Assembly: GCF_010367455.1 (NCBI RefSeq)
Contig: NZ_WRPR01000126.1
Location: 1-64,000 of the forward strand
Origin: Candidatus Laterigemmans baculatus
GTDB taxonomy: Bacteria > Planctomycetota > Planctomycetia > Pirellulales > Pirellulaceae
Length of the DNA stretch: 64,000 nt
Direction: 5' to 3'
The notes below the pieces were generated by a model. It saw only the letters and a program-made list of their open reading frames with translations, ran no database searches and was not told the origin of the DNA. This document shows, piece by piece, positions 2,960 to 59,907 of the stretch; position 1 is the first letter of the stretch; the number at the start of each line of letters is the position of its first letter. Made by a program: the position numbers and the translations under genes.

Positions 2960-3124
2960 ATGCGATTCGCCATGGAGAGGGTGCGGACGGCTTTCCCGTT
3001 TGCGGCCGAGTTTGTCAGGAGCTTGCTACGTCAATTGAAGCGTCTCGGGGCGCGCTGGTACGGGCACGTGTGTGCCGCCATCGCACAGAGGACTCCCCGG
3101 ACGCTGCGACTCGGGAGACTGTGA
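2960..3124 (+). CDS. Short leader peptide coupled to the integrase, 54 aa
   Basis: ATG 2960 follows a strong Shine-Dalgarno sequence (GAGGAGGT at 2948-2955, five bases before the start). The 54-residue product (MRFAMERVRTAFPFAAEFVR...) is strongly basic. Its stop codon overlaps the integrase start as TGATG (3122-3126). The integrase ATG has no good ribosome binding site of its own, so translation is probably coupled. The peptide may be a translational leader without an independent function. It resembles no family I know. Confidence 0.5.
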   Translation: MRFAMERVRTAFPFAAEFVRSLLRQLKRLGARWYGHVCAAIAQRTPRTLRLGRL

Positions 3125-14741: not shown

Positions 14742-15587
14742 TCAATCCCAAGGCATGGGTTTCGGCTTGGCTGCAAGTGTCTTGAAACGGTTCGACAAGA
14801 TCGGTCTTAAGACGTCGAGGCCCTCGGAGTTGTTCAGGTACTGAATGTAGCGGTGGTGGCGCAGATCAAATGGAATGTGATCACTTTCCTGGGTGATTGG
14901 GATTACATGCTTCCCCAGTGTGTGCGCAATGCCAGCCTCATAGAAAACATTTGCGTTCATGCCGGTGAAGTCACAGACAACTATATGAGATCGAAAGATC
15001 AGGGAAAATATGTCCTGAATGACGGTTGAGTCATCCCATATGTCATCAGCGCGTTTGCAGGCCAACCCCGCAGACGAAGCGGCGGATTTGATCGAGCTGT
15101 ACACAGGACCGAAATTGCTGGCAAACGGCATCATCACGGACACGAGGGAGCGATCTACATTACCCTCGGGGACTCGAAAAACGTTGGGCGAGAACACGAT
15201 GCGGCGTGCGTCATTGCCCTCGCTGGAGATATACTCGCCAGCTTCGGGGCACTTTGTCTTGACGTAGTCGGTAATAATGTCAAGGTAGCTGGGGTCTGCG
15301 GCTACCATCTTTTGCAGCATGCTCAACACGTGGCCTTCGTAGTCATCGTCGCCGAAACTGAGGCTGCGCAGCAGGCGTGGATGATCGTTTACCGCATCAA
15401 TTTGGTTCGTTAGTATGCCCAGTTCACGCCAATGCGAATCGTTGAAGCCGGCGATGATGTGGTTTTTTAGGGCGACGATCTGTTTGCCCGTATCTGGATC
15501 GATAGATCGCAAGAATCTAGTCCTTGGAAAGCATTCAATGTTAATTCCCAAACCGCGAATTGTCCTCAGTTCGTGGACGCAAATCAA
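14742..15587 (-). CDS. TIR/nucleoside-deoxyribosyltransferase-like protein, 281 aa
   Basis: The C-terminal part (about 148-240) has the pattern of the TIR-like/NDT superfamily. It has a strand LVSVMMPF, a helix, then CKRADDIWDD, a helix IQDIFSLIFRS, a strand HIVVCDFTGMNANVFYEAGI and finally LGKHVIPIT. The YExG-type glutamate (FYEAG) is in the position of the catalytic acid of NADases and deoxyribosyltransferases. The N-terminal 140 residues are helical and unassigned; they could be a sensor. Such proteins are common in defence islands, usually cleaving NAD or nucleotides. That this one is a defence effector is inferred from the motif and the neighbourhood. It stands alone on the minus strand. 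Confidence 0.6.
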   Translation of the reverse strand: MICVHELRTIRGLGINIECFPRTRFLRSIDPDTGKQIVALKNHIIAGFNDSHWRELGILTNQIDAVNDHPRLLRSLSFGDDDYEGHVLSMLQKMVAADPSYLDIITDYVKTKCPEAGEYISSEGNDARRIVFSPNVFRVPEGNVDRSLVSVMMPFASNFGPVYSSIKSAASSAGLACKRADDIWDDSTVIQDIFSLIFRSHIVVCDFTGMNANVFYEAGIAHTLGKHVIPITQESDHIPFDLRHHRYIQYLNNSEGLDVLRPILSNRFKTLAAKPKPMPWD

Positions 15588-16641: not shown

Positions 16642-19536
16642 TCAGCTTGGCGTCCGATCTACGGTCAGGTCGAACGCCAATTCGGTGCCGAAGGCGTCGG
16701 GGAGTGGGGCGGTGGGCTGAGTGCCGTTTTCGGGAATGAGCTTTGCGACTTCGTCTTGGCCCATGACGATTCGGAACCATTGCTCTCGGTCCCTCATGAC
16801 TCGGTACTGGCGCTCGTCGGCGGTGCCGCTGAGGTACGGCAGGAAGATCTGGATGGGGTGCTCGCCTTCTGCCTTGCAGCCGAGGCGGTCGATGCGGCCA
16901 GTCCGCTGCTCGATGACGCTCGGGTTCCAGGCCAGGTCGTGATGGATGATGTGCCGGCAGTAGCGGTGCAGATCGACGCCTTCTCCCATGACTTGGCTGC
17001 AGACGAGGATGTCGGGAAAGAACGGCGTGTTAAAGGCGCGCATTAGCCGTGAACGCTGTTCTCGCCGTGTCGTTCCCATCGCCACCTGGACGTTGGCCAG
17101 CGCGATGGCTGAATCCGCGTCTTCATCGTCGTCGTTCGACTGGGTTTCCGTCTCTTCCGTCGTGACCCGGATTCCGCCGGTTTGCGTGCGTGCGGCGGCT
17201 TCGAGATAGCTCAATCGTTCGCTCGACGAGCAGCGGTCGACGAGAAAGTCGATGAAGGCCTCGAACTTCTTCCGCCAGGTCACTCCCGATCCGTCGGGCG
17301 CAGCCAGCATCTGCTCGACCCCGAGCGCTGGTGTCAGCTGGTCGTGTTGGCCGATTGGAAAACAACGGACCAGCGTCGTCGGTACCCGCAGGAATCGCCG
17401 CATCACGTCCAGCAGCTGCGAATGCTGGGCGTCTGGCAGCTCGGCGTCTTCCAGTTCGCGCTTGCGACCGTGAATGATCGCCTCCAATGCTCGATCGAGC
17501 TCGACGCGTCCCGGCCGCTTTGCGTCGTCGAAGTAGCGGTCTTGAATACTCTCGATGACCCGCTCGATCTCTCCGTCGGCGATCGCTCGCCCTGCCTCGG
17601 CGAATCGCCGCTGTGCCACGACGTTCATGCGGCGACGGATCTCCTCGCTGATGTGCAGTCGCAGTGCTCTGCACGTCTGCCGATAAAAGGCGAATACCAG
17701 CACTTTTTCGCCCGCCTCCCAGAGGTCGACCGCCTGCCGAACCGTCGAGGAGATCTTTGGGTGGATGTTCCCACTGTACTGCTGGAGAGCGAAGTCGAAC
17801 TCCGCAAGGTACCAATTCGCCTGAGAGAGATCGGTCGAGGCCTGCTCCTGTTCGTCACCGTCCAACTCGTCGCGGTCTGCGACTCGCTGCTGACGTGTGT
17901 AGCGGAAGGCTTCATAGGAGGAGCAAAGGGCGTCGCCCAGGAGGTCCCGCCCTGCCGAGACGTCGCTCCTCGCTGCAAGGAAGAAGGGCAGCAGCTGATC
18001 GGGTGGAACGTCGAGTCCCGCCTCCGCCTGGGTGTCGCCGTTGCTGGCTGCTCCAGCGAGGCGGCGTCGCCGCTGAATCCCGGTGCCGGGCCAATGCTCT
18101 CCCTTGTTGTGGCGGATGACCCACGGCCTTAGATTTGCCTCGGCTGCGGTTCGCCACTTATGTGCCTCCGAGAACGCGCCGACCAGTGCACGTTGCCGAG
18201 GAGTTAATTCATCCGGCTCAGATCGCCGCAGGGCTTCCCACCACGCGTCGACGTCCTGGTCCGCTGGCCCCTCCTCAGGACGCAGAAGAGCCCAGCAGCG
18301 CTGTAGCACGATGGCGGTACGTTGGCTCTCGGTCAAACTGCCCGCGAGCGCGGTCAGCTGGCTTTCGAAGGCTGCTTTCGAGCCGAGCGTCTGCGGAGCC
18401 CGTCGCACATCGCCAAAGCGATTCAGCACGCTGACGAGTTCCTGGTGCCCTAACTGGAATGGCGTCGCCGTCAGGAAAAGCATCCGGTCGAATACATGAG
18501 CCAACGCGCCGTCCCCGACCCGCAGGTCGCCATCCAGCTCAAGCGACTTCAGCTGCTTGGCTAGGCTCGTGCCGGGATTTTTCAAATGATGCGCTTCATC
18601 CATGATCAAGAGCGGGGATTGCCACGGGGCGGATGCGAGAACATCTCCCCAGAGCTCGTGCTCGATGTGACGCAGGGCGCGTCGAGCGTTGGTGATCCGA
18701 GCTGCCGTGGTCTTGCTCTCCCGCAGCGGCAACTGTTCGAGGGCGTCGGCCAATTCGGAAAGGTCGATATCGGGAAACGCTTCGACGACAGCCTGGGGCA
18801 CTGGGTCGTCGGGCAGTCGGCGTTTGTCTTGGCAAATGACCTCGTTGTAGTAGTCCTTCCACTCCATGGGATCGCGCCGTAGGAGTTCACTCCAGAGCTC
18901 ATCGCCGAGGTCGGTCGCCCGCTCCTCTCCGAGCGCCCCCAGCAGTCTTCCCATGAATCGGTGGATCGATTGCCGGACCTTCTTCAGACTCTCCCGCCTG
19001 CCATGTCGCCGAAATGCCTCGCGGATCAGCGCGAGGCTAACCCACTTGTCGGATTGGCGGCGCGTCATCGCACCCTGCGCAAGAAAGATCAAATGGCACC
19101 GCTCGCGAGCCGGATCGTCCATCAATTTCAGGAGTTCCACGCTATGGCGAGCGACCCCGTAGCGGACAGCTCGACAGGACCGCAGGTCGCTGGGTGACGC
19201 TTCATCCCGAAACACCGGACAGCGGTCCTCGAGATAGAGCTCGCAAAAGGTGGCCAAGTCCTGTTGCCACTTGTCGATGAGATTCGGCGGCGCCATGACG
19301 ATCACTGGCCCGCGCCGGCTGAGCGTGGCGACTGAATAGGCGACCGCCAGAGCCACGAAGGTCTTGCCCATCCCCACTTCGTCAGCGAGAACCACGCCCG
19401 GCTGGCGACGAAGACGGTCAAGGATCTCCTCAACTTCGACCCGCTGCCGATCTTGGTCGGCGTGCGGAACTCGATCGTTTTTCTGCACGCCCAGTCGAAG
19501 CTCTGCGGGAATGCTGTAGCGATCTAGTTTTGGCAT
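16642..19536 (-). CDS. SNF2-family helicase of a three-gene cassette, 964 aa
   Basis: This is a superfamily 2 ATPase of the SNF2/RapA type. Motif I is LADEVGMGKT (about residue 52), motif II MDEAHHLKN (about 315), motif III FLTATPFQLG (about 355), motif V CSQVMGEGVDLH (about 850) and motif VI QRTGRIDRLG (about 882). Large helical inserts separate the two RecA domains. There is no nuclease motif. The start ATG 19536 overlaps the 3' end of the PLD gene by 13 bp, so the two are co-expressed. SNF2-like ATPases paired with a PLD protein occur in several defence systems (for example DISARM), where they translocate on DNA. I infer a similar role. Confidence 0.88.
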   Translation of the reverse strand: MPKLDRYSIPAELRLGVQKNDRVPHADQDRQRVEVEEILDRLRRQPGVVLADEVGMGKTFVALAVAYSVATLSRRGPVIVMAPPNLIDKWQQDLATFCELYLEDRCPVFRDEASPSDLRSCRAVRYGVARHSVELLKLMDDPARERCHLIFLAQGAMTRRQSDKWVSLALIREAFRRHGRRESLKKVRQSIHRFMGRLLGALGEERATDLGDELWSELLRRDPMEWKDYYNEVICQDKRRLPDDPVPQAVVEAFPDIDLSELADALEQLPLRESKTTAARITNARRALRHIEHELWGDVLASAPWQSPLLIMDEAHHLKNPGTSLAKQLKSLELDGDLRVGDGALAHVFDRMLFLTATPFQLGHQELVSVLNRFGDVRRAPQTLGSKAAFESQLTALAGSLTESQRTAIVLQRCWALLRPEEGPADQDVDAWWEALRRSEPDELTPRQRALVGAFSEAHKWRTAAEANLRPWVIRHNKGEHWPGTGIQRRRRLAGAASNGDTQAEAGLDVPPDQLLPFFLAARSDVSAGRDLLGDALCSSYEAFRYTRQQRVADRDELDGDEQEQASTDLSQANWYLAEFDFALQQYSGNIHPKISSTVRQAVDLWEAGEKVLVFAFYRQTCRALRLHISEEIRRRMNVVAQRRFAEAGRAIADGEIERVIESIQDRYFDDAKRPGRVELDRALEAIIHGRKRELEDAELPDAQHSQLLDVMRRFLRVPTTLVRCFPIGQHDQLTPALGVEQMLAAPDGSGVTWRKKFEAFIDFLVDRCSSSERLSYLEAAARTQTGGIRVTTEETETQSNDDDEDADSAIALANVQVAMGTTRREQRSRLMRAFNTPFFPDILVCSQVMGEGVDLHRYCRHIIHHDLAWNPSVIEQRTGRIDRLGCKAEGEHPIQIFLPYLSGTADERQYRVMRDREQWFRIVMGQDEVAKLIPENGTQPTAPLPDAFGTELAFDLTVDRTPS

Positions 19537-21647
19537 CGTTCAACCACCCGGCTCCAGAAGTCTCGCACGTCACTGCTGATTCGAGCATGCTGCGGCCTAA
19601 CTTGGTGGTCGACGCATTCCGCCAACTCCCGCAGGAACGGGAGGTAAATTTCGCCGAAATCCACTGCTGATAGAGCTCCTTCCGCCGGCTGATAGTCAAG
19701 ATCACGCAGCACAATCAGGACATCCGCCAGCGTGAGTAAGGTTTCGTCGACTTTGCCGTTACCGGTCACCACCTCATGCGTCAGACGCTGCACCAGTGGC
19801 TTCACGCCGATGAAGCCTTCGAGCCGCCACTGAACTGCCTGCTTGCTGAATGCTGGTCGCTCCAGGTTCTCCCGTAGTTTTGCAAGGACCCGGGCTCTGG
19901 TCCGCACGCGACGGAGAAACGTGGCACGGAGGTCGTACCGGGCGAGTGGATCGAGGTCGGTCGGGAGAGCCGCATCCAATTCCTCGTCGAAACCGTCGCC
20001 AGTCTTCTGCCGCTTTGTCCAAGCTCGGAATGCGGCACTGGGGTCCGCAGCAGCCAGGATTTGCAGCATGTCATCGGCCGCCATGTTTTCCAGTGCAATC
20101 GGGGGCGGAAGCTGACTCGCGTCCTCCACGTTCAGAGGCCAGAACCCCTCTCCCTCAGGCCAGCAAACGTGCAGCTTTTCCGGCGGGTGCAGGAGACCCC
20201 ACGGCAAGCGGATAACACTGGGGCTCCCGTTGGCGATCCAGCGTTCAGAACCGAGTAACTCCACGATCTCCTGACCGCACGCCGAGAGCGACCACTGGGC
20301 GGGCAGCCCCGATGGCTCAAGCTGGAGCAGGATTTCTCGCTCCGTGCCGCCACGATAGGTCGCCACCAGAAAACCGGCCGGCAGCAGCGGCTGATCTGCC
20401 CGCTCCTCTTCGTCATGTTCCGGAGCTGGGCCTTCCCATTCAGCCTTTTCGGGATGCTCTACCGGATTGAATTCGGGCCACACGGCTTCCAGCTCTCGGG
20501 GTTCGCGTGCATGTGGCCGCTGCACCGCCAGCATCAGCAGGTTCGCTTCCGCGTTGCAGCGTTCTCCAATCCCGAGGCCCGCGCGAGTGAAGTTGGAGGA
20601 ACCGATGAGGAGGGCGGAATATTGGTCTGACCGCAACGCGAGCATCTTGGCATGCCACGGACGGGCGTTACGGTCCGCGTCGCTCTGTGGCAGGACCCCA
20701 ATTTCAACTTCACCGGAGTAATGAGCTGGCGTTTGCAACAGGCTGCGGGGTGCCGCCAGCCGGAGAACGGCATCATGCGGTGAACCAATCGCTGGCACAC
20801 ACATGGTCAGCCGTCGCGTGACGCCTCGTGCCATCTTCTTGCACAGTGCAGCAGTCGCGGGATCGAGTTCGCCACTGCACGGATCGAAGAAAGGCGAGGC
20901 GATCCATGCTTCCTGGGGCGATCCGCCCCGCTTGCGGCAGAATTCGGCCGCTTCGTCTAAAGCACTGCGAGGCTCGATGTCCGCTCCGCCGTTCACAGGG
21001 TTGCTGCCTAGCCGCGGAAGTGAAAACACTAATTTCCGGTCGTATCCGTTCGCGGCTGCTGCTGCCTTCCACTGGCTCGCCTGGATCTCGACCTGGTTCA
21101 GGAAGGCCAATGAACGTTTTACGACAGGCATCTCCGGGGCGGCGCCTGGCACGAACGCTACGAGAGACCGCAGAAATCCGATCGCCGCTCCCAGTTGCTC
21201 GCGCTCAGCCTCTTGCGGGGTCGAGTCGACGGCAACGGCAATTTCGTGGTTGTAGCGGTAACCCGATTCGGTGAGGTTGGCCGATGCGATGATGATCCGG
21301 ATGCATCGAGTCCAGGACAGAAGACTGATTTTGGCGTGCTGCTTACCGCCCCAAATGCGGACTGGGAGAACATCCCATCGCAGTGAGTGTTCGACCCCGG
21401 CTTGAGTGTGATCGACCAGCACACCGGCGTAGGTTGACCCCAGACGCGTCTCCCGTTCCAGCAGGTACGCCAAATCCTCTCGGTTCGGATCGGACTCGAC
21501 CTCGAGGAACCGACCGAGGCATTGCTCGTCGAATAGCCCCGGATCGAAGGTATAAGTGGTCGTGAGGCAGCCGATCGGCTCGCCCGCTCCGCGCGGCGGC
21601 CGCCACAGGTCTAGCATCGTTCCCGGGGCTGATCGCTTCTTGCTCAT
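19524..21647 (-). CDS. Phospholipase D-superfamily protein, 707 aa
   Basis: Two HKD-like half-sites are present. The first is QHAKISLLSW with SANLTESGY (about residue 104-125), which lacks the usual Asp after HxK. The second is WHAKMLALRSD with GSSNFTRAG (about 330-355), which is complete. PLD enzymes of this sort in defence loci are nucleases, but the degenerate first half may lower or change activity. The C-terminal half (about 430-707) is a helical region of unknown fold. The start ATG 21647 overlaps the stop of the preceding gene as ATGA; a longer start at 21680 is less likely. It overlaps the SNF2 gene at its end. Confidence 0.8.
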   Translation of the reverse strand: MSKKRSAPGTMLDLWRPPRGAGEPIGCLTTTYTFDPGLFDEQCLGRFLEVESDPNREDLAYLLERETRLGSTYAGVLVDHTQAGVEHSLRWDVLPVRIWGGKQHAKISLLSWTRCIRIIIASANLTESGYRYNHEIAVAVDSTPQEAEREQLGAAIGFLRSLVAFVPGAAPEMPVVKRSLAFLNQVEIQASQWKAAAAANGYDRKLVFSLPRLGSNPVNGGADIEPRSALDEAAEFCRKRGGSPQEAWIASPFFDPCSGELDPATAALCKKMARGVTRRLTMCVPAIGSPHDAVLRLAAPRSLLQTPAHYSGEVEIGVLPQSDADRNARPWHAKMLALRSDQYSALLIGSSNFTRAGLGIGERCNAEANLLMLAVQRPHAREPRELEAVWPEFNPVEHPEKAEWEGPAPEHDEEERADQPLLPAGFLVATYRGGTEREILLQLEPSGLPAQWSLSACGQEIVELLGSERWIANGSPSVIRLPWGLLHPPEKLHVCWPEGEGFWPLNVEDASQLPPPIALENMAADDMLQILAAADPSAAFRAWTKRQKTGDGFDEELDAALPTDLDPLARYDLRATFLRRVRTRARVLAKLRENLERPAFSKQAVQWRLEGFIGVKPLVQRLTHEVVTGNGKVDETLLTLADVLIVLRDLDYQPAEGALSAVDFGEIYLPFLRELAECVDHQVRPQHARISSDVRDFWSRVVERCQN

Positions 21648-22939
21648 TGCAGGTCTAAGTAGAAGTTGCGGATCGGCCACCCACGGTAGTCGTGGACATA
21701 CTGGGTCGGCTGCACCGAGCGGCGCGACTGGCGATACTGCTGGCGAACGTAGATGCGATCCGAGGAAATCCGATCGAACCAGGCCCGTTTGCCGTCACCT
21801 CCCTTGGTCTTCTGCACCGTTTCGTGGTGATCGCATAGAGCGAATGCACACTCCGCGGCGTTTAACGGCTCGGCGAAAGGGCGAAACCGCTCGTCGAACA
21901 CGTTCAGCAGCTGGAGATCGACTTCGCCGAGCAGTTGGCGAGCGGCCGCGTGCCGGTCGGCCGTGCCGCTCAGGGACGAGCGAAACTCTTCGTCGTTGGC
22001 CAGGCTCGGAATGGGGAGCGCACTCGCGTCTGACGAGACGGCTGTGGCCCGGAGAACATCAAAAGCGTCATGGAGGCCGCGGCAAAATTGCTCATACGCG
22101 TCGATTGCCCGGACGAGCGCAGTGACCGACGGTAGCTCCTGCTCAAGCCGAGCGTGTAGCTGTTCCTCGGCATAATCCTCACTGAACTCAGGCTGGAGCG
22201 CCCATATCGCGGGCAGAGCCCCGAGGGCACGGCCGTCGGCTGCGTGAAGGAGCTCTCGCAGAAACTGTTTTTCCGCTGGCCCCGCACGGTCTGGAGCAGT
22301 GGCGTGAGCCAGTTCTTGCCAGCCGTCGCTGTTCCAGGCCGGTCGGGTGCGAGCCGGATTCTGACCCAAGCTCCGTTCGACCGCCTGTCGCCACTTGTCG
22401 AGCAACGGCCGGCAGCCGGGCAGCCCGTCGTATCCAAGGTCGCGGGCCCAGGCGTCGATTAGTCGTTCGCTTTCCGGCCGCGGCCCGAGGTGCACGTCGA
22501 CGAGGTCGAGGTGGATCGCAAGCCGCTTGTAAACACCGTGGAAGCCGAAAATCCTCGGCGTCTTCAGGTAGCTGCGGGCGTCGAGATATGCATGATCCGC
22601 CAGCGCACGGCCAGCGACGAGAGTCCCCGGGACGCCGAGCGGGATACCGCCGTCCCCGCGGGAGCGGACGATCGACTCGACAGTCAGCCACTCCCAAACT
22701 AGGAAAGGCGAGACTTCCGGCTGCTCGGGATCGCTCTCCAGGCCCTCAACGACCAGCGCCCCGAGAGCCATCGTCGTCAGAAACCGAACCCGCTGCATCC
22801 GCTCACGCACCGCCGGTACCAGCCGCACCGCCAGCTGATCGGCGATTTGGTACAGCCCCAAGGGATCGAGCGTCCCTTCGCTTGTTCCCGGGGGATCGTA
22901 GCTGGTCAAGAAGGGAACCGCATTCATTGCTATCGCCAC
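21644..22939 (-). CDS. First gene of the SNF2/PLD cassette, unknown family, 431 aa
   Basis: The N-terminal part contains LDPLGLYQIADQLAVRLVPA and MQRVRFLTTMALGALVVEGL. This pattern, of a two-domain protein that senses or recruits, resembles in style DUF6361-type proteins that accompany PLD and helicase genes, but the match is not good enough to name it. A C-terminal region (about 370-425) carries CALCDHHETVQ-like and HDYRGWPIRNFYLDL segments. No membrane segment or catalytic motif is recognised. It is the promoter-proximal gene of the cassette and divergent from the 23114 gene with a 174-bp gap. ATG 22927 (MNAVPFL) is an alternative start. Confidence 0.6.
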   Translation of the reverse strand: MAIAMNAVPFLTSYDPPGTSEGTLDPLGLYQIADQLAVRLVPAVRERMQRVRFLTTMALGALVVEGLESDPEQPEVSPFLVWEWLTVESIVRSRGDGGIPLGVPGTLVAGRALADHAYLDARSYLKTPRIFGFHGVYKRLAIHLDLVDVHLGPRPESERLIDAWARDLGYDGLPGCRPLLDKWRQAVERSLGQNPARTRPAWNSDGWQELAHATAPDRAGPAEKQFLRELLHAADGRALGALPAIWALQPEFSEDYAEEQLHARLEQELPSVTALVRAIDAYEQFCRGLHDAFDVLRATAVSSDASALPIPSLANDEEFRSSLSGTADRHAAARQLLGEVDLQLLNVFDERFRPFAEPLNAAECAFALCDHHETVQKTKGGDGKRAWFDRISSDRIYVRQQYRQSRRSVQPTQYVHDYRGWPIRNFYLDLQ

Positions 22940-23064
22940 GATCTCGGGCGTCTGGTGTGGACCGGGAAGCGACAGAGTCGTCCCACTCCGTAAAAATCGC
23001 CACGAGCGGCATCTTCTGTCGCTCGGAAAATGCCCCTCGCTGTAGCGGAAGCACGATAGCCACC

Positions 23065-23070
23065 TATACT
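23065..23070 (+). promoter_or_regulatory. Possible -10 element in the divergent intergenic region
   Basis: TATACT at 23065-23070 lies 44 bp before the ATG of the DUF4011 gene. No good -35 sequence is seen 17 bp upstream, so this is tentative. Confidence 0.25.
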
Positions 23071-23113
23071 ACACCTGCGTACCCCCCCACCTCTGGAATC
23101 GGCTGATACCCGC

Positions 23114-26100
23114 ATGACATCGCTCCATCTACCGAAGGAACTTGAGCGTTTCCGCGAGCGCTTGCTGGATTTGAGCCTGCGCAACCCACTGCTGAACTAC
23201 CGGAAGAGTGTCCGCCGGACAGTGCAGATCGTCGACATACTGCCGGACCGTCTCTACGAGCGTCTGGTCACGGAGCAGAAGGGCTATCAACCCGAGCCGC
23301 TGGTGGAAGAAGAGGAAGACGAGGAGGACGAGGGAAACCTCGTCACTATTACCGACGTGAACGCAGCTCACACGTCAGTTGGCGAGGATGCACTGCGGAC
23401 GGCCGCCGGCAGATTTGAACACAAGCATTCAAAACGAGTGGCGTCAGAAGATGAGCCAACCGGCACTCCACGCGACAAGAAAGACCGTGCAATTCGCCGG
23501 CAACTTTTTCCGGTTGAGTTGCCTGGTCCCTCCAGCGATCGCGGCGGTGAGATCGCGGGTCCCGCCCACCGGCTGCAAACAAACCTATCCGCGGCTCGGC
23601 TTCGATCCACCCTCCGCTACATGCATCGCGAATCTCGTAATGCGATCGAAGAAACCGGAATCAACTATCTACATCTGGCCCTAGGGTTTCTCCGCTGGAC
23701 CGAAGCTGACAGCTCGTCCACGTCAAAGCTGGCGCCCCTGATCCTCATTCCTGTACGCATCGAATCGGTCCTCGACCGCAGAATCGGACAGCAGAAGTCC
23801 ACGGTTGTTTGGAATGAGGAGGACGTCGCTTCGAATCTGTGCCTGATCAAGTTGCTCGAGAAGAACTACGGAATTGCACTCGACGAGTATTCTCCAGACC
23901 AGTCACCAGAAGACTACTTCCGTGAGGTCCAGCGTATCACCAAGTCCAAACGCGGGTGGGGAATTTGCCGCGAGGCCCTTCTGGGATTCTTTTCATTCCA
24001 CAAGCTGTCGATGTACAGCGACCTTGCCCCGGAAAATTGGAAGAGCGGTAACGCGTTGTCGGAGAGTTCCCTATCGGGACAGTTGATTGGCGGCGCAAAT
24101 ACCGAAGCTGCATCAGCGCTCTACGCTGCCGATTATGACCTCCACAATCATGCTTCAGCAGGCGATATCGCTCTGCCACTTGATGCTGACAGCTCTCAGC
24201 ACTCCGCCCTTTGTGACATCCATGACGGCCGTACTCTTGTTATCGAGGGACCTCCAGGAACAGGCAAATCGCAAACCATCACCAATGCGATCGCGAACGC
24301 CATCTCACACGGTAAAACGGTGCTCTTTGTCTCGGAGAAGCTCGCTGCACTCGAGGTGGTTGCTGGCCGGCTCGCCAAACTCGGTCTTGACGACTTCTGC
24401 CTCAAGCTTCACAGCGATGCATCCACTCCACGGCTCGTATTCGAGTCCCTTCGGTCGAGGCTCGAGCGAAAGGCTCGGATGCCGAAAGAAATGAGCGAAT
24501 TGCGGTCAGAGCTGACCCTGCAGCAGGAAGAAATCGATTCGTATCTGACGGCAACAGAAACGCCCATCGGGCCAAGGCGTCGCCCGCTCTACGAGGTGTT
24601 CTGGCAGCTTGTGGAGATGCGTTCCCAGGGCCTAGTCTCGCTGCGTGAGGCAGAGCTGGACACGTCTTTGGATATGCGCCAGTTTCTGCGCGCGTCCCAG
24701 GAACTCGAGTCATTTGCTGCGGCCCTGGGGGAGTTTCCCTCTCCCCGCGAGAGCCCGTGGTGGGGCTTCTTCCCGTCCTCGCTGAATCCCAACAACTGCG
24801 ACCCCGTCGAATCTGCACTCCGAGCAATGGTGAAAACGCTCGATGCGTTTTCGGGAACTGCAGAGGAGCTCGCCTCGAAGTTGGGCGGTGACAGCTTGTT
24901 TTGGCTTGAGGAGCTATCGCGGATCGATCTCGCGATTTTCGAGCGAATTGCCGAAGCTCCACCATCCCGGAGCCGTGAGCAGATCGCTGACCTGCAGATC
25001 CCTGAGTGTCGCAAACAAGGCACAGCCTTGCTGAATGATATCGGTGGCTACCAGCAACTAACGGAGCAGCTAAATGCCACGCTGCTCGTCGAGCCCAAGA
25101 ATGCTGCCGATCAACTCGCTGGACTTCAGGCGACCGTCTCCGATCGCTGTCAGCATTTTCCCAAAGAGGTCACGCTGGCTGAGCTAAGGGAACGGCGAGT
25201 TTGGCATCGCACGACTCTCACCTACCTAGAGCAACTAAAAGAAGCAGCTGAGGCCATGGAGAAAGCCGGGCTGGGGCCGGCCCGAACGATTAATGAGTAC
25301 AAGCGAGCGAGAACGGTGCTGCAGCTCGTACTCCACCCCTGCGTGCACCAGCCGGGAACGGTGACTCCACAGCTCTTTCTAGAAGCGGCCAAAAAGACCT
25401 TCCGGGACGCCCACGCAACGGCGGATAAACTGGCCAAGCGTGAGGCAGATCTGAGTGAAGTATTTCATATGCCGAGCGTCCCAGATCGAGATGCTTTGCT
25501 GGAGATCGTGTCGGCGCTGCGACCGCATGTGCATTCAGTGCTACGGGTGTTTCGCCGTGAGTACCGCACTGCGATGGCACAGATTCGCCGTTTTGCACGT
25601 GTCGACTGCAAGCGGTCGCCGGAACAGTGGGTGAACGCTGTCGAGAGCCTGGAGTCTATCGAAGAGGAGAAGCGGAAATTCCGCGAGGCTCCGGAGCTGA
25701 TCGAAACATTCGGATCGGCATTTCAGGGTATCGACACGGCGTGGGACAGCTTGCGGACTCTCTTCGACTGGGTGCATACCGCGAAAAAACACGGGCTGGA
25801 CTACGAGCGAGCGAACATGCTCCTCGACGCGAGATACTCAAACGCTATCGGTGTGAGCCCCGCCAAAACAAAGGAGCTGCTAACCGCTGTCTCAGAACAG
25901 TTCGCGAGCGAGTCTGCATCGAAGCTGATCGGGATCGGCACAGAGCGATGGGAGGACTTGCCGCTTGAGAACCTGAAGCTGCGACTGGAGGAGACGGAGT
26001 CAGCCATATCGCGACTTGAGTCTGCCTCTCAGCTATTTTCCAGCAAGGAATCCACACGCCTGAGCGAAATTAGTGAAACATCGAATGCGATCGCTCGGTG

Positions 26101-28216
26101 GGGCGAGATCCGAGACAGAGTCTTCGAATCTGCAAACTGGCCGCCCCTATCGGCGGAGATGCACTCTGCTTTGCTAGGTGATCCAGATCAGGGCCGCACT
26201 GACATCGACTGGTTCGATGCCTCTGAGGCCAGTGGGCTTTCAGATCAGGCGATTCGCCACATTCTGGAAAGTAATCCTGTCGAATCTTGCAGATTCGTTG
26301 TGGGAGCGGCGTGGGCTGTCAGAACTGCTTTAGCCGAATGGGACGAAGCCCGGGGCATCCTAGGCCAGCAAGGGCAGGTTGCGGACGAATGGCTTCGTGT
26401 TAAGGCGTCGGCGGTCGCCACGGGCGAACTTCGTGAGCAGCTAGAACGACTGCTCTCCTCACTTTATGAGCTTCCGGCCTGGGCTGCGTTGAGTCGAACA
26501 CTCACGCAATGCGAGCGGCTCGGCCTCGCCCATTTCACTGCCGCGGCAATCGATTCGCGGGTTGCTCCTGGCAAACTGGCGGCCACCTTTGAGCTGACGC
26601 TACTAGAACGCTTGGCCGACGAGGCAATCGACTCTTGTCCAGAGCTTCAGGGCTTCGCTCGCCAGCGTTTGGAAACGGCTCGCGAGCGATACCAACAACT
26701 TGACGTTGAACTGCGTAACCTCGCGTGCGAAGAGGTTGCGTATCGCGCATCCAGACGCCAGCCGCCCGCCGGCAATAACCGCGGGCGTGTCGGTGAGTTC
26801 ACAGAGCTAGCCCTCATCAAGCACGAGGTGCAAAAGCAGAAACGCCACTGTCGTATCCGCGACCTGATGGTTCGTGCAGGAGCATCAGTTCAGGCACTAA
26901 AGCCGTGCTTCATGATGAGTCCACTGTCGGTGGCACAGGCCATTCCCGCCGGCACACTCGAGTTCGATCTGGTGATCATGGACGAAGCATCGCAGATCAA
27001 GCCAGAGGATGCATTGGGGACCATACTTCGAGCCCATCAGCTGGTGGTGGTCGGAGACCCCAAACAGCTACCCCCAACGTCCTTTTTTGACCGTATTGGG
27101 GAAGAGGTTGACGACGATGACTCGACCCAGTTCGACAACGCGGAGTCAATTCTGGAGGTAGCGATGAAGGTCTTCCAGCCGTTCCGTAGGCTCCGGTGGC
27201 ACTACCGCAGCTCCCACGAGGGCCTCATATCGTTCTCCAATTCCCGCTTTTACGACGAGGACCTTGTCATCTTCCCTTCGCCAAGCGCAAACGGCGGTAT
27301 GAGCGGCGTGAAGCACCATTTCGTAGACAATGCCTTCTTTTCGTCGGGAGTCAATCTCAAAGAAGCCGAGGCGGTTGTAGCCGCGATCCTGGAGCATGCG
27401 AAACGCGACTCCGGAGAAACCTTGGGGGTGGGCACGTTCAACAAGGCCCAGGCGGACGCTATTCAAGACCTGCTGGACCGCCAATGCGCATCAGACTCCC
27501 GTGCCCGGGCAGCCCTCGAGAGACTGAATTCGGGGCATGAGCAGCTGTTCATCAAGAACCTCGAAAACCTGCAGGGCGATGAACGCGACGTGATTTTCAT
27601 CTCCTACACGTACGGGCCGGATCCTCAGAGTGGCCGCGTTATGCAACGGTTCGGTCCGATCAATAGCAGTACGGGGTGGAGGCGACTGAACGTTTTGGTG
27701 ACGCGGTCTCGAAAACGAATGGAGGTCTTTTCGTCTCTGCTGTCTTCAGATGTGGTAGGCGGGCCGGAGAAGAGCCAAGGCGTGAACGCCTATAAGGATT
27801 TTCTCGAGTTTTCCGTCACCGGGAAGCTCGTCGATCGCGGCGATCTCAGCGGTCGAGACTGTGATTCGCCGTTTGAATCTGCAGTGTGCCGAGTGGTGGA
27901 ATCGATGGGACTCGAAGCAGTGCCGCAAGTAGGGGTCGCCGGCTTCTTTATCGACATCGGGGTACGGTCCCGCAGCTCGCCGGGCGAGTTTCTGATCGGA
28001 ATCGAGTGCGATGGCGCAGCGTACCACTCCTCCCGTTCCGCACGAGACCGTGATCGGCTGCGCGAGGAGATCATTCGCTCGCGAGGATGGAATCTGCACC
28101 GAATCTGGTCGACCGATTGGTACCTGAACCAACGCCATGAAGAGAACCGTCTGAGACGCGCGATAGAAGCCGCGTGCGGTACGGTAGCTGAGCTCACAGC
28201 AGAGCTCCAGCCATAA
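23114..28216 (+). CDS. DUF4011 / SF1 helicase with C-terminal Vsr-like nuclease, 1700 aa
   Basis: The start MTSLHLPKELERFRERLLDL followed by SLRNPLLNYRKS is the DUF4011 signature. Walker A IEGPPGTGKSQT is at about 379 and Walker B LVIMDEASQIKPEDALG at about 1288. VVGDPKQLPPTSFF at about 1312 and a UvrD/Upf1-like C-terminal helicase domain follow (LQGDERDVIFIS, VLVTRSRKRMEV). Residues 500-1200 form a long helical region inserted between the helicase halves. The last 115 residues are an MTES_1575/Vsr-type nuclease: a Glu near FESAVCRVV, then IGIECDGAAYHSS and RDRLREEIIRSRGWNLHRIWS. Proteins of this design are frequent in defence islands and are thought to cut foreign nucleic acid. The gene is apparently monocistronic. 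Confidence 0.9.
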   Translation: MTSLHLPKELERFRERLLDLSLRNPLLNYRKSVRRTVQIVDILPDRLYERLVTEQKGYQPEPLVEEEEDEEDEGNLVTITDVNAAHTSVGEDALRTAAGRFEHKHSKRVASEDEPTGTPRDKKDRAIRRQLFPVELPGPSSDRGGEIAGPAHRLQTNLSAARLRSTLRYMHRESRNAIEETGINYLHLALGFLRWTEADSSSTSKLAPLILIPVRIESVLDRRIGQQKSTVVWNEEDVASNLCLIKLLEKNYGIALDEYSPDQSPEDYFREVQRITKSKRGWGICREALLGFFSFHKLSMYSDLAPENWKSGNALSESSLSGQLIGGANTEAASALYAADYDLHNHASAGDIALPLDADSSQHSALCDIHDGRTLVIEGPPGTGKSQTITNAIANAISHGKTVLFVSEKLAALEVVAGRLAKLGLDDFCLKLHSDASTPRLVFESLRSRLERKARMPKEMSELRSELTLQQEEIDSYLTATETPIGPRRRPLYEVFWQLVEMRSQGLVSLREAELDTSLDMRQFLRASQELESFAAALGEFPSPRESPWWGFFPSSLNPNNCDPVESALRAMVKTLDAFSGTAEELASKLGGDSLFWLEELSRIDLAIFERIAEAPPSRSREQIADLQIPECRKQGTALLNDIGGYQQLTEQLNATLLVEPKNAADQLAGLQATVSDRCQHFPKEVTLAELRERRVWHRTTLTYLEQLKEAAEAMEKAGLGPARTINEYKRARTVLQLVLHPCVHQPGTVTPQLFLEAAKKTFRDAHATADKLAKREADLSEVFHMPSVPDRDALLEIVSALRPHVHSVLRVFRREYRTAMAQIRRFARVDCKRSPEQWVNAVESLESIEEEKRKFREAPELIETFGSAFQGIDTAWDSLRTLFDWVHTAKKHGLDYERANMLLDARYSNAIGVSPAKTKELLTAVSEQFASESASKLIGIGTERWEDLPLENLKLRLEETESAISRLESASQLFSSKESTRLSEISETSNAIARWGEIRDRVFESANWPPLSAEMHSALLGDPDQGRTDIDWFDASEASGLSDQAIRHILESNPVESCRFVVGAAWAVRTALAEWDEARGILGQQGQVADEWLRVKASAVATGELREQLERLLSSLYELPAWAALSRTLTQCERLGLAHFTAAAIDSRVAPGKLAATFELTLLERLADEAIDSCPELQGFARQRLETARERYQQLDVELRNLACEEVAYRASRRQPPAGNNRGRVGEFTELALIKHEVQKQKRHCRIRDLMVRAGASVQALKPCFMMSPLSVAQAIPAGTLEFDLVIMDEASQIKPEDALGTILRAHQLVVVGDPKQLPPTSFFDRIGEEVDDDDSTQFDNAESILEVAMKVFQPFRRLRWHYRSSHEGLISFSNSRFYDEDLVIFPSPSANGGMSGVKHHFVDNAFFSSGVNLKEAEAVVAAILEHAKRDSGETLGVGTFNKAQADAIQDLLDRQCASDSRARAALERLNSGHEQLFIKNLENLQGDERDVIFISYTYGPDPQSGRVMQRFGPINSSTGWRRLNVLVTRSRKRMEVFSSLLSSDVVGGPEKSQGVNAYKDFLEFSVTGKLVDRGDLSGRDCDSPFESAVCRVVESMGLEAVPQVGVAGFFIDIGVRSRSSPGEFLIGIECDGAAYHSSRSARDRDRLREEIIRSRGWNLHRIWSTDWYLNQRHEENRLRRAIEAACGTVAELTAELQP

Positions 28217-28295
28217 AGCATGCTTTTGTGTCGCGACTCCGAAGGGGCCTTGCGAAAAACTGCGCAGGCAAGCTGGAACAGCCGGCTGCCGTGCG

Positions 28296-28613
28296 TCACT
28301 CCTCGGTTACGTCGACACGCTCAGCATCCTCAAGACGATACATTTCGCCGTCGATAACGACGACACGATCGAGCTCACTCCAGAACTCGGCAGTTGACGC
28401 GTCGAGTTCGTCGACTTCCCAACGCGACCCGTCAGTGAGAATGATGAGACGTCCTTCGTACTTCAGCTCTGCGATTTCGGAAACCACGTGCTGTCCCAGC
28501 GAATACATCCTGATGCCCCATTTCCAAATCGCCTGCTGCTGGTCAGGCGACATCGCGGCCACGCCGATCTGTTCGAGTTCTTCTTGAGACATTAAATCCT
28601 TCAGATCAACCAT
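28296..28613 (-). CDS. Hypothetical protein, 105 aa
   Basis: The protein begins MVDLKDLMSQEELEQIGVAA. The first half is an amphipathic helical region; the second half is strand-rich (RLIILTDGSRWEVDELDAST, RVVVIDGEMYRLEDA), which suggests a small beta domain. ATG 28613 follows AGGAGATCGCGACG. It converges with the DUF4011 gene and lies upstream of neither BREX gene. Unknown function; possibly a small cargo gene. Confidence 0.6.
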   Translation of the reverse strand: MVDLKDLMSQEELEQIGVAAMSPDQQQAIWKWGIRMYSLGQHVVSEIAELKYEGRLIILTDGSRWEVDELDASTAEFWSELDRVVVIDGEMYRLEDAERVDVTEE

Positions 28614-28721
28614 CGTCGCGATCTCCTATAAATCAGAAAGAGTTTTCTACGTTGCCTGTCGGTGGGTTTCGGAAGCGAGCAGCGCTCCGTGACGAGAGCG
28701 AGCCGGTCGGGTTAATTCAAT

Positions 28722-30824
28722 TCAATGTGCGGTCGCGAAACGCATGGGTTGCACCAAAACATTCTGCGCCGAAGGGCCCTCTGCAACGCGCCGGCGCAAG
28801 AGGTTCAGCGCAAGGAGATACGGCAGGCATCGCGCGAACTTTAGACCCTCGATAGCTCTTTCGTCGATCTGGGGTTGCATGTCACGGGGGTCGAGGTCTC
28901 TGAGTTGGGCGAGCGCTTGGTTGAGAGCGGTCGGTTGAATGTCGGCGGGGAGAGTGAGCTTGAAGCTGTCGTGGGGGATATGGGTTTGGAGGCGTTGGGC
29001 TAGCTCGTTGGCTAGGGTGGCGTTGGCGGCGGAGCCGGCGAAGGTCCACCAGGTTAGGCTGTCGGTGGTTTGGAGGACGACGGTGCTTCCTACATCGAGC
29101 CAGGGGTAATCCAGGCGGGCCTGCTGGATCTGTTCGGCAGCTCGGCGGGACCAGTAGGGGCGGGTGTCGTCGCTGGCCAGGACGCGGCGGATGGATTGGG
29201 TGAGTGCGGCGCTGATCCCCTGCCCTTCCCCGTGCCAGCGGGAGCGGCCCTTGGCGTCGGAGGGTTCGACGTAGGCGATCCGGCGCTGCCAGTCGATGTG
29301 GTTCACCTGCCACGGCCGGCCGCCGAGGAGCAGCACGCGGGGGCCGTCCTGTTTGGTGAGAAAGCTCATCTGGTCGACGTAGCCGAGCTCCCTCCGCCCG
29401 TGCAGGATCGAGAACAGGGGCGGCGAGGTGAAAACCGAAAAGAGCTCGAGGAAGTTTTTGCGGCCGAAGGCGCTTTCGCCCTCTCGACCGAGCCAGAGGA
29501 TGCCGGCGTCATCCCAGAGAATTTCCTGCTCGAGCATCCAGTCGACGATCTCTTCGATCGTCTCCGGCGGCATCTCGGCGAACCCTGGGACGCCGCGGAT
29601 CCAATCGAACCAGTCTCGTCGCCCAATGCCGCCTTCCTGCAGGGCCAAGGCCATCAGCTGTTGGGCGAGGATGTGGTAGGGCGCCGGCGGCGGCTGGACT
29701 GGTTCGACATAGCCGTCGGCCCAGAGATCGACTAGCGCGGCCGCTTGCAGAAGGGTGGCCTCCTTGGTGGCGAGAAAGAGGCAGTTTCGCTCGGTGCCGG
29801 CCCGTCGTCCGGTGCGACCCATCCGCTGCAAAAAGCTGGAGACGCTCGGGGGCGAGTCAATTTGGATCACCCGGTCGAGGTTGCCGACATCGACGCCGAG
29901 CTCCAAGACGCTGGTGGCGACGATCACGCAGTCTTCACGCGAGGCGAAGGCTTCCTCGGCCTGGTGCCGCTGCTCTTGGCTGAGCGAACTGTGGGTCACG
30001 AAAGTGGTGACGTCGAGCTGCCGCAGCTCCGTGCCCAGCTGCTCGGCTCGTGAGCGGCTGTCGACGAACACCAGCCGCTTCTCACCCCGGTGAAGACGGG
30101 AGATCACAGTCGCGGCGTTCTGAAGCGATCCCACGTAGTCGAGCCGCACGTCCGCTTCGCCGCCGCCCGACTCCGGCGGCAGATAGACGCTCCGCTCTCG
30201 CTGGCAGGAGCCGGCCAGCCAATCGACCAGCGCCTCCGGATTGCCCACGGTTGCCGATAACCCGATGCGCTGGGGCTCACGGTCCGCTAGCCGGGAGATC
30301 CGTTCCAGGACCGAGAGCAGGTGCCAGCCTCGGTCGTCGCCAGCAAACGCATGGATCTCGTCGATGATCACGACCTGCAGATTGCTGAACAGACCGCGGG
30401 CGTCGACATTCTTCGAGATCAGCATCACCTCCAGCGACTCGGGGGTCGTCAGGAGACAGTCCGGCGGCTCTTGCAGAATGCGTCGGCGGGCGGACTGCTT
30501 CACGTCGCCGTGCCAGAGGCCGGAGCGTCGGCCGAGTAGCGTGCAGTAATGCTGCAGCCGGACGTCGAGGTTGTTGAGCAGCGCCTTGATCGGGCAGATG
30601 TAGAGGACGCTCAAGCCTGACCAACCCTCGGAGAGCATCCGAGAGATGGTGGGAAACATCGCCGCTTCGGTCTTCCCACCCGCCGTCGGCGCCAGGATGA
30701 TGATGTGCTGACCGCTGAGGACCTGCGGGATCACCGCCTCCTGAAACGGTCTCAGCTCACGCCAGCCCAGACTGTTGACGATCTGGTACTGGAGGGCGGG
30801 ATGCAGCTGGTCGAACGCGCTCAC
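28722..30824 (-). CDS. brxHI: BrxHI helicase of BREX type 2, 700 aa
   Basis: This is a superfamily 2 DEAD/DEAH-type helicase related to Lhr. Motifs are LAPTAGGKTEAA (about residue 42), VVIIDEIHAFAG (about 150), LSATVG (about 195), VATSVLELGVDVG (about 305) and QRMGRTGRR (about 335). The C-terminal 330 residues resemble the Lhr-type winged-helix and extension domains. In BREX type 2 this is the last gene of the operon. The stop of brxD overlaps its ATG (ATGA at 30821), so it is co-translated. No missing motif is seen. Confidence 0.85.
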   Translation of the reverse strand: MSAFDQLHPALQYQIVNSLGWRELRPFQEAVIPQVLSGQHIIILAPTAGGKTEAAMFPTISRMLSEGWSGLSVLYICPIKALLNNLDVRLQHYCTLLGRRSGLWHGDVKQSARRRILQEPPDCLLTTPESLEVMLISKNVDARGLFSNLQVVIIDEIHAFAGDDRGWHLLSVLERISRLADREPQRIGLSATVGNPEALVDWLAGSCQRERSVYLPPESGGGEADVRLDYVGSLQNAATVISRLHRGEKRLVFVDSRSRAEQLGTELRQLDVTTFVTHSSLSQEQRHQAEEAFASREDCVIVATSVLELGVDVGNLDRVIQIDSPPSVSSFLQRMGRTGRRAGTERNCLFLATKEATLLQAAALVDLWADGYVEPVQPPPAPYHILAQQLMALALQEGGIGRRDWFDWIRGVPGFAEMPPETIEEIVDWMLEQEILWDDAGILWLGREGESAFGRKNFLELFSVFTSPPLFSILHGRRELGYVDQMSFLTKQDGPRVLLLGGRPWQVNHIDWQRRIAYVEPSDAKGRSRWHGEGQGISAALTQSIRRVLASDDTRPYWSRRAAEQIQQARLDYPWLDVGSTVVLQTTDSLTWWTFAGSAANATLANELAQRLQTHIPHDSFKLTLPADIQPTALNQALAQLRDLDPRDMQPQIDERAIEGLKFARCLPYLLALNLLRRRVAEGPSAQNVLVQPMRFATAH

Positions 30825-39297: not shown

Positions 39298-39792
39298 TCA
39301 AGCCACGGCCGATCGGTGGTGGATTTCGTGCTTGATTATCTGCAGATCGTGAAATCGCAGGGTGATGATGCGTCCGCTGCTCAGCAGGACTTCGTGCTGC
39401 GGGATTCCTCCGGGGGCGACACTGAATTCGTCGTAGAGCCAGTGCACCCGCTCATGGGAGAATGGCCACGATTCTTTTACCGGTTGGATCAGTGGCTCCT
39501 CCGCCAAGAAGTAGAGCAGCAGGGTCATGGTGGCGTCGCGGCGCATCGCCAACATCGCCAGCGGCCCCTCGCTTTCCGGGATGTGCGGCAGGGAAAGGCC
39601 GAGGTAGTCTGCATCGTGCAAATCGAGTGTCTCAGCCAATTCGCGGACCGACGCCGGAAGTTGGGAACCGATCTCGGTGAGGTGCTTTCGGTAAGACCCG
39701 AGGGCCTTTTCCCATTGCCGGTCGGCCTTGTCCGCTTCGTCCGGATCGTCCGAGTTGAAACCGAGGTAAATTTTGGGGGTGAAGAACTTCAT
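39298..39792 (-). CDS. Hypothetical protein in the BREX locus, 164 aa
   Basis: The protein starts MKFFTPKIYLGFNSDDPDEA. A helical first half is followed by a strand-rich second half containing MTLLLYFLAEEPLIQP and QHEVLLSSGRIITLRFHDLQ. The ending (IIKHEIHHRSAVA) is His-rich. There is no membrane segment. ATG 39792 overlaps the stop of the 39789 gene as ATGA, so both are co-translated. I do not recognise the family; it is plausibly a dispensable BREX-island cargo gene. Confidence 0.65.
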   Translation of the reverse strand: MKFFTPKIYLGFNSDDPDEADKADRQWEKALGSYRKHLTEIGSQLPASVRELAETLDLHDADYLGLSLPHIPESEGPLAMLAMRRDATMTLLLYFLAEEPLIQPVKESWPFSHERVHWLYDEFSVAPGGIPQHEVLLSSGRIITLRFHDLQIIKHEIHHRSAVA

Positions 39793-40151
39793 GGCTTCGC
39801 CTTGCGGTGATCGGTTTCATAAAAGCAGTGACCCGCGGGAGGTCGCGGATCAGGCTGGTAATGGGGCAGCGCGTCGGGGCCCGCGTTGAAGTGCGGCGGG
39901 CATCGCTTCCATCGGCCGTTTGCTTGTGTTTCGATTTGTTTCGCTAGCTCTCGATTATCTCGAGGGTTCGGGCCACAGACGACCACATCACGCCCGTGTC
40001 GTCGTCCGGTCACAGCATCCGCTTCGCTGATTTCTCGACCGCGAACGACACCGCCACCGCTGGATTGTGGCTGCAGTGTCGCCGTGTAAATCGTCGGACC
40101 AGATCCACGCGGCGGGGGTGCCTCGCCGCCTTGTTTCGTTTTGGTGGCCAT
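39789..40151 (-). CDS. Hypothetical protein in the BREX locus, 120 aa
   Basis: ATG 40151 (MATKTKQGGEAPPPRGSGPT) is chosen because the longer frame would begin inside two palindromic repeats. The N terminus is Pro/Gly-rich. The middle (RHGRDVVVCGPNPRDNRELA) and the C terminus (GHCFYETDHRKAKP) look like a small folded domain with CPPHFNAGPDALPHYQPDPR, a pattern I associate with PAAR- or toxin-adjacent proteins but cannot name. It is co-translated with the 39298 gene. Confidence 0.55.
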   Translation of the reverse strand: MATKTKQGGEAPPPRGSGPTIYTATLQPQSSGGGVVRGREISEADAVTGRRHGRDVVVCGPNPRDNRELAKQIETQANGRWKRCPPHFNAGPDALPHYQPDPRPPAGHCFYETDHRKAKP

Positions 40152-40193
40152 CAGCTCGTCCTGCACCTGTTTACCCTTCGGCAGCCGGATCGA

Positions 40194-40254
40194 CTCACGC
40201 AAAGGCGCCAAGAACCGGGATCTGCCCTTTGCGAGCTTTGCGCCTTTGCGTGAG
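40194..40254. repeat. Family 1 palindromic repeat
   Basis: CTCACGCAAAGGCGCCAAGA at one end and GCTTTGCGCCTTTGCGTGAG at the other. The copy lies upstream of the 39789 gene. Confidence 0.85.
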
Positions 40255-40286
40255 GTCCGATCCACCCCGCAGTCACTCACCGCTCC

Positions 40287-40302
40287 ACTGACAACTGGCA
40301 AC
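40287..40302. repeat. Family 2 repeat, remnant
   Basis: ACTGACAACTGGCAAC resembles one arm of the TTGTCAGTTGTCAGT family. It lies 10 bp downstream of the pglX stop codon. It is a single short arm and may be chance. Confidence 0.35.
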
Positions 40303-40311
40303 AACCAATGC

Positions 40312-56181: not shown

Positions 56182-56197
56182 GTTTAATTGAATGCGA

Positions 56198-58597: not shown

Positions 58598-59907
58598 GAC
58601 GCTTGTCCGCTTTGAGGAGAGATAATGTGCTGAGAACCAATAAGACCTCTCGCCGACGAATTCAGCGCGTACAGCATCGGAACTTCGACCCAGTAGGGAT
58701 CCATGTCGCGAGGACGGATACCAAGCGAGCCACTCTCCGGGTCCAGTTCCGGGCTACGGCCCGTGGCACTCACCGGAATGAAGGTCAAGTCCCGGGCAAA
58801 TCCTTCCGCCGCTGCAACAATCTCTGGGCACAGCTCTCGGAGCAGGTCGCCAACTTGGCTGGAGATCGCCTGAATTCGGTCTCGGTTCAGCGAGCGGACA
58901 CTTTGTCCTTGGATATCGAAGTACGGCTCATCGCGGGACGCCTCGGGCAGCAGGCGGTGCCAGCTGTCCCATTTGGTAACAACGATGACCAATGGGCGTT
59001 GGTGCAGCTCGTCTTCCCGAAGTCCCGCATGGCGACGCACGCGCTGGATCGCTTCCAGCAGAATTGTGTCCTGACGAACGCTTGCCTCACGGTCTAGTCT
59101 CGCCGTCCGGCGAGTCATTTGTGGGTCCTCAGACTTGCCTTCGCATGCGCGACGGAAACGGGGATCCTGCGTCGGATCGAAGCAGAAGAATAGGCACGAC
59201 GACAGCGCTAGGTGTCGAGTGACCGGACTGGACACTGTATCCGCGCCTGGAAGGAAGCTCTCCCCCGCGTTGTCATACAGGCACATAATCCGTGAGATTC
59301 GCTTGCTGCGGGCATGGTTGGGATGCTTTCCCAGTGGCTGCAGCGTGAACATGAACGGGCGTGGCAGCGTGATGGAGTGGTCACCCATGTTGACCAGATC
59401 GTACAGGTCGCCCTGTGTTTCCGTTTTCGCGATCGCTACGAGCTGGTCGGGATTGGGATTAAGGAACTGCTGTTCCTCGTATTGATGCAATCGTGCATTG
59501 GCGGATGCATCGGCATCGTTCATTGATACGCTGAAGTATCGGGGAAGCGTCTGTCGCATCTTCCAGGTCATTGAGGCGAGGAAGTAGCTTTTGCCGCAGG
59601 CAGGGGCACCCAAAATCGAGAAGAAGATCGACGGTACTTGGTAGAACGGTCGCGGGACCTCAAGGTGGCAGTTCGGGCACGCCATTTTCGTCGCGCGATA
59701 ACCTCCCTCGTCGATAGCATCCCCTTCAACGGAAAACCGTGACGGAAGAAACCGTCGCGCATGCTCAAAGCCGAGCTTGGCATCTCCCGAAAGATCCGGA
59801 TGTTCAGAAATCCATAGCGACTCTTCGGGTGCAAATCGCTGCCAGCAGTGTGGGCACGTCACCTCTGTGAGCAGAGTTAAAGCGGAAGCAGGAGAAGCAG
59901 CTGGCAT
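58594..59907 (-). CDS. TRAFAC-type GTPase with zinc ribbon, 437 aa
   Basis: A zinc ribbon opens the protein: CPHC at 18-21 and CPNC at 77-80. The P-loop is LGAPACGKSYF (100-107 for GAPACGKS), the switch II/Walker B-like motif CLYDNAGES (about 210-217) and the specificity motif VVTKWDSW (TKWD, 311-314). Together they are the guanine-nucleotide-binding pattern of a GTPase, in the style called TRAFAC or double-GTPase in NCBI names. No membrane segment. ATG 59907 (MPAASPASALTLLTEVTCPH) is chosen. It is translationally coupled to the GAP1-like gene. I infer that it is the switch controlling the envelope machine. Confidence 0.82.
   Translation of the reverse strand: MPAASPASALTLLTEVTCPHCWQRFAPEESLWISEHPDLSGDAKLGFEHARRFLPSRFSVEGDAIDEGGYRATKMACPNCHLEVPRPFYQVPSIFFSILGAPACGKSYFLASMTWKMRQTLPRYFSVSMNDADASANARLHQYEEQQFLNPNPDQLVAIAKTETQGDLYDLVNMGDHSITLPRPFMFTLQPLGKHPNHARSKRISRIMCLYDNAGESFLPGADTVSSPVTRHLALSSCLFFCFDPTQDPRFRRACEGKSEDPQMTRRTARLDREASVRQDTILLEAIQRVRRHAGLREDELHQRPLVIVVTKWDSWHRLLPEASRDEPYFDIQGQSVRSLNRDRIQAISSQVGDLLRELCPEIVAAAEGFARDLTFIPVSATGRSPELDPESGSLGIRPRDMDPYWVEVPMLYALNSSARGLIGSQHIISPQSGQAS

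Follow-up and report, generated by a model that had tools for sequence, protein, structure and literature searches.

The plus-strand gene at 23114-28216 of the 64,000-nucleotide stretch analysed here (the window) probably encodes a helicase-nuclease that acts against phage on its own; the protein belongs to a branch of the Hhe clade whose members lack a C-terminal tail. Judged by its sequence, this Hhe-like protein belongs to a known kind of defence, the Hhe / PDC-S37 group, as a divergent, tail-less member, and does not represent a new one; the family name was absent from the initial annotation, and the placement comes from PADLOC and NCBIfam. An anti-phage role is likely given the kinship with Hhe, which is curated as anti-phage in NCBIfam, and the defence setting of the gene; as the scores lie well below the Hhe and ProA cut-offs, the function is transferred from a relative of about 32% identity.

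The gene is real and intact. The open reading frame starts with ATG, encodes 1700 amino acids with 0 internal stops, and has a coding-like codon-position GC (0.646/0.443/0.645). It was identified from the frame itself and from Pfam, PADLOC and NCBIfam matches. The DUF4011 domain (residues 16-248, 23159-23857, Pfam E 3.3e-36) is followed by the aligned Walker A motif GPPGTGKS (residues 379-386, 24248-24271), an insert in the first RecA domain that is weakly conserved in the alignment (residues 441-1220, 24434-26773), and motif II, DEASQ (residues 1290-1294, 26981-26995, from the alignment). The second RecA domain, matched by Pfam AAA_12 (residues 1345-1539, 27146-27730), carries the aligned motifs WHYRS, QGDERD and NVLVTRSRKR, and the MTES_1575 / Vsr-type REase domain (residues 1587-1684, 27872-28165, Pfam E 3.9e-32) has the ECDG motif at 1631-1634; all these features are on the plus strand. 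The Pfam AAA_11 match consists of two separate stretches, and the chain ends 16 residues past the end of the MTES_1575 domain. The initial annotation had described a single 1700-residue protein joining DUF4011, a split SF1 helicase with about 800 inserted residues and a Vsr-like nuclease with an ECDG motif. The intact frame, the Pfam matches and the motifs bear this out, with IECDG starting at residue 1630 and a weakly conserved stretch of 780 residues, 441-1220, whose boundaries were set by us; its domain reading, split motor, nuclease motif and defence setting are all correct. Purifying selection was observed in one close pair of relatives, L005/L034 (dN 0.10, dS 0.58), and, for the nuclease domain alone, in one pair (dN 0.049, dS 0.45).

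The top PADLOC matches of the protein are PDC-S37 (1258 bits split over 3 stretches, with no cut-off given by PADLOC) and Hhe (872 bits), and the top NCBIfam matches are Hhe and ProA. The NCBIfam Hhe match covers residues 10-1678 in one stretch (positions 2-1674 of the 1797 in the profile), and both NCBIfam scores are below the curated cut-offs: 1243.2 vs 2000 bits for Hhe (NF042953) and 1105.7 vs 1500 for ProA (NF058533). Two relatives from the same branch, L004 and L034, are also below both cut-offs, the Hhe of a Klebsiella plasmid (L073) is above that for Hhe (2744 vs 2000), and L038 and L057 are above that for ProA. A literature search for the name PDC-S37 found no description, and one for ProA found no descriptive paper. 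The comparison with DUF4011 relatives, proposed from the outset, places the protein beside curated Hhe: in a tree of 62 motor sequences, from which the nuclease columns were excluded, it falls into a 21-row clade with the Klebsiella Hhe (support 100/100). Its own branch of nine rows has support of 88/92, and the inner seven rows 100/91. The partial sequences L035, L110, L079 and L077 were retained in the tree, L033 was dropped for its very long branch in an earlier 45-row tree, and the alignments omit L043 and L052 (both partial) and other weaker matches.

From position 1675 onward the Hhe-like protein has 26 residues vs 131-141 in the Klebsiella Hhe, and all nine rows of its branch end shortly after the nuclease. 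Tail-less rows make up 12 of the 21 in the Hhe clade, where they are spread over more than one branch, and 21 of 62 in the whole tree; well-supported branches force at least five changes of the tail, so its loss or gain has occurred repeatedly. Pfam matches to DUF3320 were obtained for L038 and L057 but for none of L004, L073 and the Hhe-like protein, the last of which lacks the region where ProA-like relatives bear this domain. A search for a broken tail downstream of the gene (28217-28722) against the tails of relatives gave nothing better than E 1.3; thus, a recent frameshift does not seem to explain the short C-terminus. For this architecture, the 2013 HEPN survey proposed the C-terminal winged helix, with which DUF3320 overlaps, as the DNA reader (PMC3710099). 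This is the sole mechanistic proposal for the architecture that our literature search found in print, and the natural tail-less branch, in which no catalytic residue has been lost, offers a convenient way to test it.

Alignment with 44 relatives revealed all SF1 motifs in the protein: GPPGTGKS, DEASQ, GDPKQLPPT, WHYRS, QGDERD and NVLVTRSRKR. D1290 and E1291 are kept in 63 of 63 rows, the Hhe-like protein included, and K385 is lysine in 48 of the 51 rows outside a clade linked to M48-like genes (see below), the remainder being two gaps and one truncated row. The nuclease residues D1614, E1631, D1633 and H1638 are kept as well; in the same 51 rows, the window included, the glutamate is found at E1631 in 49, the aspartate at D1633 in 51 and the histidine at H1638 in 45. 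The spacing from Walker A to DEASQ is 903 residues, and among the relatives with both motifs this gap ranges from 413 (L033) to 1192; hence the long insert is a trait of the whole family and not peculiar to this protein. Among eight aligned proteins, 18 of the 756 scored insert columns are invariant, as are 40/96 in the nuclease and 58/230 in the second RecA domain, so that conservation among the large parts is lowest in the insert. R-x4-6-H pairs of the HEPN type occur in the protein, and none is conserved in the insert in these eight sequences. A model of residues 330-1330, folded without an alignment and read only as a helical tendency, has 548 of the 780 insert residues helical and no strand, at low confidence (pLDDT 39). 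For DUF4011, a model of residues 1-460 built with nine sequences (pLDDT 68.5) gave no Foldseek match to known folds at E <= 0.001, and its VIA-align matches were chiefly to the RecA part (best Z 6.6). No Pfam match to a transglutaminase-like domain was found in the protein.

The solved motors closest in sequence are SMUBP-2, Sen1, Dna2 and Upf1, a class that moves 5'-to-3' on single strands, and the same is therefore expected of the Hhe-like motor. These motors are mostly RNA helicases; Vsr-type nucleases, however, are DNA endonucleases. It is rather improbable, though worth weighing, that the protein cuts or remodels RNA and not DNA, like CnuH of type III CoCoNuTs, in a suicidal or transcript-clearing defence. 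CnuH resembles UPF1 and carries a large helical insertion downstream of Walker A, to which type III-B adds a Vsr-like nuclease in the same chain; RNA is the predicted target of the CoCoNuT systems (PMC11090510). Yet no McrB/McrC-type match was found among the flanking genes scanned, and the 2013 analysis, where it deals with such proteins, predicted DNA as the target (PMC3710099).

Cleavage of phage DNA by a stand-alone protein, our preferred reading, can be outlined as follows. The UPF1-like motor would load on single-stranded or branched nucleic acid from phage replication, DUF4011 and the helical insert may restrain the nuclease or read the substrate, and ATP-driven movement would bring the Vsr-type nuclease to cut phage DNA. 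Since the gene has no methylase of its own and the protein no winged-helix tail, the choice between self and non-self would be made by DNA structure or a phage protein, not by sequence or a methyl mark; most likely, no methylase is needed. Hna, a single-protein defence nuclease, is reported to be an autoinhibited dimer triggered by phage SSB (PMC13381803), and, by analogy, a phage-protein trigger of this type is a reasonable guess, but no more, for the Hhe-like protein.

The gene was initially placed between two multigene defence modules, and profile searches agree, with weak matches on the left and strong ones on the right. To the left are three overlapping minus-strand genes (16642-22939) encoding an SNF2 helicase (best match PDC-M27C, 1e-42; ZacC, 5.6e-27), a PLD protein (ZacB, 4.8e-12) and a 431-aa protein with no match; by these weak profile matches, the set would be Azaca- or PDC-M27-like at best. 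To the right, genes with strong matches to BrxHI, BrxD, PglZ, BrxC/PglY, PglX and PglW (28722-49140) form a BREX locus, which we take to be type 2 by its gene content. Two small unmatched genes lie inside this locus (39298-40337), and a 105-aa minus-strand ORF with a protein-like translation (28296-28613) lies between the hhe-like gene and brxHI. Elsewhere in the window we found a phage-type integrase (3070-5121), possibly of the element carrying the island, a protein with AbiJ N-terminal domain 5 (14742-15587), and a protein with SHD1 and trypsin-like peptidase domains (60158-62029). Three minus-strand genes at 53290-59907, one without a Pfam match, one with GAP1-N2/GAP1-M and one with a weak double-GTPase match, look like a GTPase-centred conflict system.

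The protein had been proposed to act as a single-gene system, and the comparison of loci agrees with this. The upstream regions (up to 900 bases) of ten members, two of which have less than 300 bases of upstream DNA, share no gene, and the only similarity among them is in the first codons of the main gene. No PADLOC family recurs among the neighbours of nine related loci (74 proteins, a chosen set): every one of the 25 families listed in the neighbour sets matched one member only, the single matches near relatives including a type II methylase model, SNF2-type helicase models and PD-Lambda-5_B. A contrast set of 61 proteins from nine loci of the M48-linked clade gave a similar PADLOC result, with no enrichment near relatives; the neighbour genes were selected mostly by a codon-GC filter, some being added and a few dropped by hand, and the gene sets are incomplete. 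Consequently, the defence setting is clear in the window but not for the relatives, whose neighbours give single PADLOC matches only, and single-gene action is likely, since there is no conserved partner gene. Separately, DUF4011 proteins occur near genes similar to the PglW gene of the window in L048:1-13564, where a PglX-like gene is also present, and in L065:6341-18001.

A two-gene unit with the 172-aa ORF just upstream (22588-23106) is very improbable. The ORF ends 7 bases before the hhe-like gene, which is operon-like spacing, but it has no Pfam match, its codon-position GC (0.653/0.734/0.520) is not coding-like, it overlaps the opposite-strand 431-aa gene, and comparison with the DNA upstream of nine relatives showed no similarity except at the start codons of the main gene's own frame; on the Pfam, codon-GC and upstream comparisons, we rejected it as a partner.

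Relatives of the protein also occur on mobile DNA. Matches were found in 442 plasmid records and on eight IMG/VR viral contigs (L077-L084), a search of a phage collection gave three weak or partial matches, and a search of a genome-contig collection gave one relative (L033). Plasmid and viral-contig relatives fit a mobile defence gene. The plasmid records, together with relatives outside clear defence islands, could also fit restriction of plasmids or mobile DNA, or host DNA repair, anti-phage activity being minor; this we regard as unlikely, as Hhe is curated as anti-phage, strong matches are scattered and not universal among related genomes, and the gene's own setting is a defence island. 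In the DefenseFinder 2022 report, Gao_Hhe was found only in Proteobacteria (PMC9090908); the gene described here is from another phylum, Planctomycetota. A 16S probe-site pattern matches its genome at two places, both within 16S genes and both in the planctomycete form, which points to a probable planctomycete host.

The same genome encodes a second DUF4011 protein (G000:C134, L036), which is placed in a different, 12-row clade. In all 12, E1631 is replaced by L or M, H1638 by Y and E1588 by a non-acidic residue, and the motor residues K385, D1290, E1291 and R1531 are kept. An M48-like gene (392-451 aa) is located directly upstream of the DUF4011 gene in 11 of the 12 loci, with a 4-base overlap in ten and a distance of 24 bases in L067; the 12th locus, L070, stops at a contig edge, so that the partner cannot be assessed there. 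Ten of the 11 M48-like proteins contain HExxH, and the partner in L036 has a Pfam M48 match and no PADLOC match. Of 392 genomes sampled from the phylum, eight have the M48-like protein at E <= 1e-15, with an adjoining DUF4011 protein in all eight; two of these genomes (G000 and G043) had already been counted, and the gene in G089 has an internal stop. Among the six added loci, the nuclease end was found in four, none with ECDG and all with L at the glutamate position (alignment read by eye). So far, this two-gene unit of an M48-like HExxH protein and a DUF4011-SF1 protein that has lost its nuclease site comprises L036:7517-14037 (G000:C134), L061-L069, L071 and L118-L125; searches of plasmids and viral contigs did not detect the M48-like partner.

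The pairing after loss of the nuclease site suggests an effector swap, and the sister-clade pair is perhaps more novel than the hhe-like gene itself. As a tentative generalisation, DUF4011-SF1 might be a common sensor-motor with exchangeable effectors, either the in-chain nuclease, as in Hhe and the tail-less branch, or, where the nuclease is dead, an adjacent M48-like protease; both forms are encoded in this one genome. If true, the tail-less branch would demonstrate that the reading function does not reside in the winged-helix tail, and protease pairing after nuclease loss would show defence proteins swapping their killing part with the sensor kept.

Several known systems resemble the Hhe-like protein to different degrees. 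First, Hhe (NF042953; PADLOC PDLC02194; DefenseFinder Gao_Hhe) arranges its domains in the same way (DUF4011, then the split UPF1-like SF1 motor, then the MTES_1575 nuclease), with an insert of like length (931-932 residues between the motifs vs 903) and about 32% overall identity. Second, ProA shares the core domains; however, in L038 and L057, which pass its cut-off, the two motifs are closer together (about 620 residues), and both proteins carry a DUF3320 tail, which the Hhe-like protein lacks. Third, the MTES_1575-type giant proteins, as described in the 2013 survey (PMC3710099), likewise combine an SF1 helicase and a Vsr-type nuclease with no methylase in the gene's own unit, but the Hhe-like protein has neither a conserved HEPN R-x4-6-H in the insert nor a winged-helix / DUF3320 tail. 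Fourth, CnuH of type III-B CoCoNuT (PMC11090510) is matched in its UPF1-like motor, the large insert after Walker A and the fused Vsr-like nuclease; it differs in that no McrB/McrC match was found in the scanned flanks of the hhe-like gene and in the N-terminal DUF4011 of the Hhe-like protein. Finally, Mokosh (MkoA and MkoC) has a related SF1 motor, matched in the motor stretches only (75 and 72 bits), whereas its PLD nuclease domain is absent from the Hhe-like protein by Pfam and a nuclease of another type is present instead.
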